Shown: one piece after another, positions 8,304 through 37,623 of the stretch | Position numbering within the stretch: position 1 is the first letter of the stretch | Layout: each line of letters begins with the position of its first letter | Assembly (NCBI GenBank): GCA_019233825.1 | Contig: JAFAMB010000026.1 | Location: 1 to 39,769, forward strand | Length of the DNA: 39,769 bases | Direction of reading: 5' to 3' | From: Verrucomicrobiota bacterium | Lineage (GTDB): Bacteria; Verrucomicrobiota; Verrucomicrobiia; Chthoniobacterales; JAFAMB01 | The notes under the pieces: generated by a model | The model's database searches: none | What the model saw: the letters and a program-made list of their open reading frames with translations, nothing else | Told to the model about the DNA's origin: nothing | Translations under genes and position numbers: made by a program

Positions 8304-9200
8304 ATGCGAATCGCCGTGCTCGCGGACATTCATGGAAATTTGCCGGCTCTCGAAGCGGTCGTGGCGGATATCGAGCGGCGAAGTCCCGACCTCGTATTCG
8401 TGGCAGGCGATTTCCAGAATCGTGGTCCGAATCCTCGCGAAGTCACGAAGTTCGTCGCCGAGAGCGGTTGGACGCTGCTACGCGGAAATCACGAGGATTA
8501 TGTGATCAGGCAGAGCCAGGATTCTCGAGTCCTGGATATTTCCGACTACTACAATTGGCTGCCTGCACGGTGGACGGCTAATCTGACACACGATTCCGTG
8601 CATTGGATCAAACAGTTGCCCATCGCGACGTCATTGACGGGTCCAGACCAACTTTCTATCACGATCGCCCACGGTTCCAAGCGGTCGAACGACGAAGGGT
8701 TTTTTCCTACCACTTCGGAGGCTAAGGCTAAGGAAATGATCGGTGCCGACCCGCCTGGCCTTCTTTGCGTCGGACACTCTCATCTCCCTCTTGTCCGCAG
8801 GATCAGTGCCACGCTGCTAGTCAATGTTGGCTCAGTTGGATTTCCATTCGATGGCGACCAGCGCGCCTGTTACGGGCTCATCACGTGGAATCGAAATCAT
8901 TGGGAAGTTGATATTCGCAGGATTGAGTACGCGGTCGACAAAGTCGTCGCCGAATTCGAGCGAGTGAAATTCTATCATGGCGCGGGGCCCCTCGCCTACG
9001 TGATCCGGAGGGAGTTAGAGTCTGCCCGCCCTCACCTGACGCCTTTTCAGTACCTGTTCGGACCGCCGCTGCGGGCCGGCAAATTGTCAATCCTCGACGC
9101 CGTTGGAGCGTATCTGGAGATGCCGCAGAAACATATCGAGGACCAATTCATTCGGGTATTCAGTAGCCTGCATCCCTCACAAATCTTCAGAGATTTGTGA
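8304..9200 (+). CDS. Calcineurin-like metallophosphoesterase
   Basis: This 298-residue protein has the full set of metallophosphoesterase motifs: DIHGN (D8, H10), GD (D36), RGNHE (N62, H63), IAHGS (H123) and GHSH (H158, H160). These bind two metal ions and hydrolyse phosphoester bonds. The fold is closest to the YfcE/serine-threonine phosphatase-like group, but the substrate is not visible. The last codons (HPSQIFRDL) lie within a large palindrome shared with the end of rpsD, so the C-terminus may have been extended by it. It is the last gene of a short plus-strand operon. Confidence 0.88.
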   Translation: MRIAVLADIHGNLPALEAVVADIERRSPDLVFVAGDFQNRGPNPREVTKFVAESGWTLLRGNHEDYVIRQSQDSRVLDISDYYNWLPARWTANLTHDSVHWIKQLPIATSLTGPDQLSITIAHGSKRSNDEGFFPTTSEAKAKEMIGADPPGLLCVGHSHLPLVRRISATLLVNVGSVGFPFDGDQRACYGLITWNRNHWEVDIRRIEYAVDKVVAEFERVKFYHGAGPLAYVIRRELESARPHLTPFQYLFGPPLRAGKLSILDAVGAYLEMPQKHIEDQFIRVFSSLHPSQIFRDL

Positions 9201-9212
9201 GCGATGCAGGCT
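9165..9212. terminator. Bidirectional hairpin between convergent genes
   Basis: AGCCTGCATC (9165-9174) pairs with GATGCAGGCT (9203-9212), and CACAAATCT (178-186) pairs with AGATTTGTG (191-199) around a four-base loop. That gives 19 bp with one 3x3 internal loop. It ends at the stop codon of rpsD and contains the stop of the phosphoesterase. There is no T tract, so it may block or insulate rather than act as a classical intrinsic terminator. Confidence 0.7.
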
Positions 9213-26628: not shown

Positions 26629-26712
26629 CCCAGCACCACCCAGCCCCATTTTCAGATCCGGCAGTAAGACCCGCCGAGGTCGGACCTGAAAGTGGGGCTG
26701 GGTGGTGCTGGG
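26629..26712 (+). repeat. Inserted 31-bp hairpin in rnpB
   Basis: Arms 26629-26659 and 26682-26712 pair over 31 positions with one G:U and one mismatch, around a 22-nt loop. The stem begins with CCCAGCACCACC, shared with the P12 hairpin. It resembles an inserted palindromic element. Confidence 0.75.
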
Positions 26713-32234: not shown

Positions 32235-34821
<2,587 letters not shown>

Positions 34822-34822
34822 C

Positions 34823-35028
34823 GGGTTTTGAGTTTTGAGTTTTGGGTTTTGAGTTTTGAGTTTTGGGTCTTCCGGATTCCAAGTTAAGTGCAGCGGTAAG
34901 CCGCTTTGCTTACGGTTTCGAGCAGGTCGTAGCCCATAATGAGCTCGTTGCTCCTCCCAGGAGATGATTTTGCACGCTAGGCCCCAACCCAAAACTCAAA
35001 ACTCAAAACCCAAAACTCAAAACCCAAA
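34823..35028. repeat. Heptamer arrays in inverted orientation between gyrB and gyrA
   Basis: Six tandem heptamers (TTTTGAG or TTTTGGG) fill 34826-34867. An inverted set of CCCAAAA/CTCAAAA fills 34988-35028. The arms share a perfect 35-bp inverted repeat (34833-34867 with 34988-35022) around a 120-nt core. The right arm ends 12 nt before the gyrA ATG. The core has a small GTAAGC/GCTTAC hairpin. Confidence 0.92.
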
Positions 35029-35040
35029 GCCGGCCGCCCG

Positions 35041-37623
35041 ATGCCAATTCATCCAAATGAAAAAGTCGAACCCGTAAACGTCGCGGAAGAGATGTCGAAG
35101 TCGTTTCTCGACTACTCGATGTCGGTCATTATTTCGCGCGCGCTGCCGGACGCTAGAGACGGATTGAAGCCTTCGCAAAGGCGCATTCTCTACGCGATGA
35201 ACGGACTCGGCCTTCTGCCGAATCGGAAACATAGCAAGTGCGCCAAGATCGTGGGCGAAACGATGGGTAACTATCACCCGCATGGTGACATGGCCATCTA
35301 CCCTACCCTTGTGCATATGGCACAACAGTGGGCAATGCGAGAGATCCTCATCGAAGGCCAGGGAAACTTCGGCTCCATGGACGGTGACCCACCGGCATCA
35401 ATGCGTTACACCGAGGCACGACTGACCCCTCTCGGCGCCGTCCTCATGGAGGATATGGAAAGGGATACGGTTGACTTCGTTCCGAACTATGACGATACGA
35501 CGACCGAGCCGACTGTCTTTCCGGCCGCCTTTCCTAATCTGCTGGTCAACGGCGGGACCGGTATTGCCGTCGGCATGGCCACCAACATTCCGCCCCATAA
35601 CCTCAGTGAGGTCGTGGACGGCATTTGCGCGCTGATAGATGATCCAGACCTTGGCACCGATCGATTGTTGGGCCTGATCAAGGGCCCCGATTTTCCGACC
35701 AGATGCACAATTTATGGCACTAGCGGGATCCGGCAATACTTCGAAACCGGCCGGGGTAGCCTGAAGGTCCGCGGCAAAGCCACGATCGAAGAAACAAGGA
35801 ACGGACGCGAACAGATCCTGATCACTGAGATTCCATTCAACGTCAATCGCGCCGAACTGATCAAACGCATTGCAGGGCTCATTCAGGAAAAGGTTATTAC
35901 CGATATCAGCGATGTACGAGATCTCTCCGACGAAAATACGCGCATCGAGTTGGAACTGAAGCGGGACGCCAACGCGAAGGTCGTTCTGAACAATCTCTAT
36001 ATGCACACCGCAATGGAGAGCTCGTTTGCCGTAAACATGCTCGCCATCGACCATGGCCGGCCTAAGCTGCTGTCACTCAAAGAAGCGCTCCTTTGCTATA
36101 TTGAACATCGGCGGGATGTCGTTCTGCGCCGTACCCGATATCTCCTCCGCCAGGCCGAGGCCAGAGCCGAAACGCTCGAAGGCTATCTGATCGCTCTAGC
36201 CAACCTTGACGATTTTATCGAAATCATTCGCGGCTCCGCCAATCGTGAAGAAGCAAAGATCAAACTTCTCGCCTATGAATTTGGTCGCGAGACGGTCGAG
36301 CATATCGGCGTTCGGATCCGAAGCGAAACCAGGTTGATCGACGGACGGTATATTTTCAGCGAACATCAGGCGGAGCAGATCCTGGAATTGCGCCTCTACC
36401 AACTGACCGGCCTCGAACGCGAGAAAATCATCAGCGAGTACACCGAGATCATCCGAAAAATTGATGATCTGCTTGACATTTTGAGACGTGCAGACCGGGT
36501 GATGTCCATCATCAAGGAAGAACTCTGGCGAATAAAGGATAAATACGGATCCGAACGACTCACCGAGATTCTCCCTGACCAGGGCGAAATAGACATCGAG
36601 GATCTCATAGCCAAAGAGGGGTGCATTATTACTATTACCCACGGGGGCTACCTCAAACGGACTGCCGAGAGTGAATTCCGGGCCCAGCGGCGCGGCGGAC
36701 GCGGTGTAATCGGGATGAGCACTCACGAAGCCCAGATGGCGGGAGATCAGGGAGATTTCGTTGAACACCTGTTCACGGCCAGTACCCATGATTCTCTGAT
36801 GTTCTTCACGCAGACGGGCCGGTGCTACGTGGAAAAAGTCTATGAGATCCCCGAAATGAGTCGTGCTTCCAAGGGCCGCTCCATTGCGAATCTGCTGGAG
36901 CTGCGGCCCGAAGAAAAGATTGCTGCCACGCTCCGAATCGAAGCTATGGACCAAAATGGTGATTCAGAAGGTGTTGGCGGCACCTGGAATTCGGCCCTGC
37001 ATATCATGTTTGCAACGCGGTCCGGTATCGTCAAAAAGACGAACTTGGCCGACTTCAGCAATGTCCGCAAGGGCGGGATCATCGCGATTCAGATTGAGCC
37101 AGGGGATGAACTAATCGACGCACTTCTTACTAATGGGTCGGATGAAGTGGTGCTGATTACACGGCGTGGCATCAGTATCCGATTTCACGAAGCCGAGGCC
37201 CGGGATATGGGACGGAATGCGGTCGGGGTCTGGGGTATTCGGCCGGAAGATGGGGATGAAGTCGTCGCAATTGCCAAGGTCATTCCGGACGCTCAACTGC
37301 TCGTGGCTGGCTCAAACGGCATTGGGAAACGCACGGGCTTCGAAGAATATCGGGTCCAATCTCGTGGCGGGAAGGGCATCATCACGATGAAGACCGGCGA
37401 GCGTACGGGCAACGTCGTCGGTGCATTAACTGTCCGTGATTCCGACCAGTTAATGTTGATCACTACGGGCGGCCAAATGGTCCGAATCCGAGTCAGCGAA
37501 GTGCGCGAAGCCGGCCGGAATACCATGGGTGTGAAGCTCATGGACCTTCGAGAAGGCGAAACTCTCCAGGACATCGCACCGGTTGTCTCCCAAGAGGACA
37601 TTGAGCAGAGCGCGGATACGTGA
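35041..37623 (+). CDS. gyrA: DNA gyrase subunit A
   Basis: GyrA cuts and rejoins DNA through its catalytic tyrosine, Y123 in SMRYTEARL. The GyrA box QRRGGRG (about residue 549) marks it as gyrase, not topoisomerase IV. A C-terminal beta-pinwheel follows with repeats such as [11 protein letters not shown]. The quinolone-determining region reads [12 protein letters not shown], with Met84 and Pro88 where E. coli has Ser83 and Asp87. The start is fixed by the conserved [15 protein letters not shown] beginning; no Shine-Dalgarno is seen, since the heptamer repeat ends 12 nt upstream. Length (860 residues) is normal. Confidence 0.97.

Follow-up and report, generated by a model that had tools for sequence, protein, structure and literature searches.

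Inverted heptamer arrays between gyrB and gyrA in a Verrucomicrobiota genome: a probable non-coding member of a group of dispersed elements with S23- and GxxExxY-coding relatives

Introduction

In the window analysed here, a stretch of 39,769 nucleotides from a Verrucomicrobiota bacterium of the order Chthoniobacterales (contig JAFAMB010000026.1), the gap between gyrB and gyrA is filled by an array of heptamers, a core and an inverted array. The locus raises the question of what this structure is, and of how it came to stand between two gyrase genes. The explanation preferred here, to which a probability of about 0.68 is given, is that it is a non-coding member of a group of dispersed, probably selfish elements with inverted arrays of 7-9-bp units at their ends, the coding members of which carry an S23 or a GxxExxY gene. 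No description of such an inverted-array element class was found in the open-licence literature.

Structure of the insertion

The features of the locus are as follows (window coordinates).

32272..34821, plus strand: gyrB, upstream neighbour (Pfam DNA_gyraseB, Toprim and DNA_gyraseB_C), with the stop codon ending at 34821
34826..34867, plus strand: left heptamer array of six TTTTGRG units (direct reading and repeat search)
34868..34987, no strand: core of 120 nt, unrelated to the core of the nearest relative
34930..34980, plus strand: REP-like hairpin within the core, a decayed copy of a dispersed repeat (matches in the genomes G003 and G000)
34988..35029, minus strand: right heptamer array, with five exact TTTTGRG units followed by a degenerate one (reading and repeat search)
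35041..37623, plus strand: gyrA, downstream neighbour (Pfam DNA_topoisoIV and DNA_gyraseA_C), with the ATG at 35041

The units of the left array are ordered GAG GAG GGG GAG GAG GGG, and those of the right array consist of the exact units at 34988-35022 followed by a degenerate sixth unit, CCCAAAG, at 35023-35029. The arms as a whole (34824-34868 and 34987-35031) are 45 nt long, complementary at 43 of 45 positions (96%) and separated by 118 nt; perfect pairing is limited to the innermost five units, which make up the 35-bp repeat described in an earlier sequence-only reading of this DNA. That this repeat is real was confirmed, since 11 array matches were counted in the window against 1.1 expected and none of 100 shuffles reached 11. 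Across sites the unit order of the two arms, coded by hand as letters, was not mirrored above chance: 27 of 57 positions agreed, where 23.3 were expected (P = 0.16). Mirrored order was therefore dropped as a sign of hairpin repair, and the perfect arm match at gyrB-gyrA may be luck.

The predicted RNA fold of the element has an energy of -104.6 kcal/mol (z = -9.6), and the terminal inverted repeats would thus form a long stem of the kind found in intervening sequences (IVSs) of rRNA. The suggestion of a structured RNA, taken in the sense of a conserved RNA, was not borne out by the Rfam search, in which nothing exceeded the gathering threshold (the best match, MIR2630 with 45.7 bits against 144 needed, is probably a palindrome artefact), nor by the core, which is not conserved; a transcript of the region would still form the long hairpin.

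The REP-like hairpin of the core, about 53 nt in its full form (CTAGCCCGCAATGAGCTCGTC..GTGATTTTTGCGGGCTAG), is matched, less strongly, dozens of times in G003 and several times in G000 (L297-L316), and has simply been captured in the core of the insertion. A tiny minus-strand ORF overlaps the edge of this hairpin copy; no family match was found for the ORF or the core, and the core around it is not conserved. The ORF is probably due to chance, as had already been suspected.

Copies in the same genome

The window's own genome (G000) is a 1.9-Mb draft, and the two genomes that carry the TTTTGRG type are 71-74% complete. A search of the draft with a 21-nt array pattern gave 57 matches at about 19 sites, so that the gyrB-gyrA locus is not unique. 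The sites are mostly inverted pairs around cores that range from a few dozen nucleotides to about 170 nt and are mostly dissimilar. All sites with readable neighbours are intergenic, with flanking genes co-directional at 13, convergent at 2, divergent at 2 and unresolved at 2, and a stop or start codon often lies no more than about 20 nt from an array edge.

A survey covered 731 kb of the same genome, including the known sites, for which it was partly picked. With a minimum arm length of 18 nt it gave 122 inverted repeats, and an equally long Markov control gave 5. Of the 122 repeats, 26 were periodic, 22 with a period of 7, and the unit types among them were GTTTTGR, GTTCGGR, GTTTCTS and GTTCACC; by inspection, the period-7 pairs carry GTT units on the left arm, reading towards the core. 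In a search of 388 genomes of the phylum, TTTTGRG arrays were present in four, one of them the window's own; those of the other three are direct or single arrays. Among viral contigs, 29 had direct or unpaired arrays and one was a possible inverted case (L415), and the only S23 match there was weak and about 2 kb from its array (L406); the idea of a phage feature was rejected.

The likeness to cyanobacterial STRR repeats proposed in the sequence-only reading extends only to the unit length; the inverted partner array and the core set the present element apart. STRRs are direct tandem heptamers built from a single fixed unit, and they lack an inverted partner, a core and a linked gene family.

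The gyrB-gyrA junction in relatives

The first 200 residues of GyrA are 84% identical to those of a Chthoniobacterales bacterium, the closest named genome, and in the nearest relative, G003, GyrA is 98% identical over the first 201 residues. The junction of G003 is occupied by heptamers of GTTCAAC/GTTCGCC type around a core unrelated to that of the present element. GTTC-type arrays were also found at this junction in G008 and G010, short GTTC pieces in G002 and G001 (the junction of the latter being cut by a contig end), and a spacer of only 8-11 nt, that is, an empty site, in G005 and G007. In other families of the order (L068 and L076), 9-mer arrays surround a GxxExxY gene at the same place, that of L068 being confirmed as TIGR04256. 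The junction seems to be a recurrent place of insertion. In two other families (L056 and L070) it ends in a different small ORF; a PIN domain was suspected in that of L056, and no Pfam match was obtained.

These comparisons bear on the view that the repeat is a regulatory site of gyrA, either a supercoil-sensitive cruciform or an mRNA hairpin adjusting gyrase expression. The position immediately before gyrA and the very stable predicted hairpin would suit such a site, but the same arrays separate many unrelated gene pairs, the insertion is missing in G005 and G007 and replaced by another sequence in G003, and the core is not conserved; this explanation, the cruciform form of which had been put forward from the sequence, is considered very improbable. 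It had also been noted that gyrA has no visible Shine-Dalgarno sequence. The repeat is not the cause, because relatives without the insertion show none either (for example TGATCAAAATCAATG in L051).

Empty sites, nesting and inversion

Ten TTTTGRG sites could be located in G003 by both flanks, and all ten are occupied by arrays there, which differ in unit number and mostly enclose a changed core; recent movement of the TTTTGRG type was therefore not seen. Filled and empty pairs were obtained with more distant genomes: site S19 corresponds to 4-5 nt, and the C217 site to 11 nt, in both G001 and G002. No target duplication was visible when S19 and C217 were compared with the short spacers of these two genomes. 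At C454 of G003, a GTTCGGR pair is nested in a GTTCACC pair, and the counterpart in G000 is a 67-nt spacer with no heptamers. Between G000 and G003, the core of site S110 has changed orientation (the reverse alignment scores 18, against a null of 5.2 +- 1.1), unlike that of S118b, which is colinear. In the sister species G001, the spacers orthologous to S76 (L204) and S118c (L207) contain inverted arrays with very different units, the 9-mer ACAGATTTC and ATTCAGG.

The empty sites, the nesting and the core inversion, together with the S23 unit at three places described below, support insertion and rearrangement, and we infer that the array elements have moved as units. The main rival holds that there is no mobile element and that inverted heptamer arrays grow in place, by slippage and template switching in intergenic hairpins. 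It accounts for the turnover of units: no orthologous site has kept its unit number and order, whereas occupancy does not change between G000 and G003, and unit types differ among relatives at a single junction, gyrB-gyrA. It does not account for one unit being common to unrelated sites of one genome, for nested pairs of two unit types at a place where the sister site is heptamer-free, for the same S23 gene and array type at three unrelated places, or for the association with two gene families, and it is regarded as unlikely.

Association with S23 and GxxExxY genes

Flanks of candidate genes were compared by a pair-similarity test with offset controls, which lie mostly in coding DNA. Across the order, inverted-copy flanks were found at 22 of 26 S23 four-helix-bundle loci (offset controls, 1 of 164) and at 25 of 29 GxxExxY (PF13366) loci (offset controls, 2 of 169); for another set of S23 loci, taken from the family to which the window belongs, the count was 17 of 18. 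A stricter first test, based on periodicity, had recovered only 2 of the 29 GxxExxY loci, because the arrays there are short and irregular; crude flank z-scores were disregarded on account of false positives in GC-rich coding flanks. By inspection, the units are mostly 7-8-mers at S23 loci and 8-9-mers at GxxExxY loci, often with a unit of their own.

In G000 itself, a four-helix-bundle gene (PF05635, interrupted by a stop) is enclosed by inverted GGAGTTCA arrays. One S23 gene (89-92% DNA identity) with arrays of GGAGTTCA type recurs in three contexts in G000 and G003, the contexts having been compared by reading, and at C17 and C111 of G000 the GGAGTTCA units enclose non-coding cores that are unrelated. 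In G001, GTTCACT/GTTCGCC arrays bracket an S23 gene; heptamers of this class also occupy the gyrB-gyrA gap of G003. No gene was found inside TTTTGRG arrays in the two 71-74%-complete carrier genomes, and the tie of the TTTTGRG unit to S23 is drawn by analogy: the window element would stand to a coding member as the non-coding copies at C17 and C111 stand to the GGAGTTCA S23 locus.

Two further loci were noted. At L362 (C61 of G001), the S23 frame enters the right heptamer array, so that its C-terminus is encoded by the array (LPNGEPRTVNAPCAV). Unlike the rest, the GxxExxY locus L288 (C85 of G011) is bounded by long inverted repeats without periodicity (AGCGTTTTTAAGCGG..).

Comparison with known elements

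The sequence-only reading had listed a mobile element with heptamer ends among its possibilities. Further copies, empty sites, nesting and coding relatives speak for it; the cores, against its expectation, are mostly dissimilar. A classical MITE, that is, a DNA transposon that has terminal inverted repeats but, being non-autonomous, depends on an ordinary transposase elsewhere in the genome, would agree with the short, non-coding body, the terminal inverted repeats and the many dispersed intergenic copies (about 19 sites). MITEs, in contrast, have conserved ends, homologous cores and usually target duplications, whereas here the arms are variable tandem arrays, the cores are mostly unrelated, no duplication was seen at the two empty sites and the enclosed genes are S23 and GxxExxY rather than transposases. 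A MITE in this strict sense is improbable. REPs are likewise dispersed, short, intergenic palindromes and, like MITEs and REPINs, are comparable to the present elements in being probably selfish, but they are fixed palindromes of 20-40 bp, while the arrays here are variable. The REP transposase (Y1_Tnp) was rejected as the mover, as neither of the two loci encoding it in the genome has such arrays.

The TAACTGA heptamer repeats of Beggiatoaceae (PMC4679880) and the GGGNATC heptamer repeats of Xanthomonas and Nostoc (PMC4692102) are similar in that they too are tandem heptamers between genes, often adjacent to a start codon; they differ in being direct arrays of one fixed unit, with no inverted partner, core or gene family, where inverted pairs are found here.

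The closest resemblance in working is to the 23S rRNA IVSs, such as that of Coxiella burnetii, which has a 28-bp terminal stem and an S23 ORF and is cut by RNase III (PMC4990558). In both, inverted terminal repeats give a long RNA stem around a dispensable core, with a likely neutral effect on the host, and the coding members share the protein family PF05635. The gyrB-gyrA element differs in lying between protein genes and not in a 23S rRNA gene, in having arms made of tandem 7-mer arrays the unit of which varies between relatives, and in containing no S23 ORF itself, although S23 occurs inside such arrays at other loci; moreover, a second gene family, GxxExxY, has the same architecture. Since it is outside rRNA and has no S23 gene of its own, the element was not filed as an IVS.

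Proposed origin and meaning

In the preferred explanation, the arrays of a coding member would enclose either a GxxExxY gene or one for a four-helix bundle of S23 type, and those of a non-coding member nothing but a short core that is freely exchanged; the gyrB-gyrA copy would be a non-coding relic of an element of the S23/GxxExxY type. The S23 or GxxExxY protein is possibly involved in moving, and insertions that fall after one gene's stop codon and before the following start would be tolerated by the host. The arms would pair, in the gyrB-gyrA transcript, into a stem of about 45 bp, RNase III would cut it, and the two mRNAs would separate at little cost. Removal of the element from the gyrB-gyrA mRNA by RNase III is probable by analogy with the rRNA IVSs, and cutting in an intergenic gap, which would be cheap for the host, would fit the intergenic placement. 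After insertion, the arrays would turn over by gain and loss of units, and recombination between the arms could flip or replace the core.

A broader proposal is put forward tentatively, at somewhat less than even odds: the S23 and GxxExxY proteins would be working parts of an undescribed mobile class with self-renewing inverted 7-9-mer ends, non-coding copies would be moved in trans, and the rRNA IVS would be a special case.

The families TIGR02436 (four helix bundle) and TIGR04256 (GxxExxY) have many copies in these genomes and no settled role. Their array-enclosed location gives these genes a genomic context and a testable role, and suggests that these very common genes ride on an undescribed kind of selfish element. 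It also connects the rRNA IVSs with a far larger range of insertions between genes, and some of the intergenic DNA that changes fast in these bacteria is explained by the array elements. For annotators, such hairpins should not be taken for regulatory sites of the neighbouring genes.

Other inverted repeats

Inverted repeats were also present in the window at 9165-9212, 273-363 and 26629-26712, the first two of which belong to families recurring across G000 (AGCCTGCATCGCTCACAAATCT and GGTAGGGTCGCGCTCC). An inverted repeat of about 100 nt with a 60-nt loop (CTAGAATCCTTGAAAGGCAA) occurs many times in the same genome (L329, L333, L334, L336, L337, L352 and L039).
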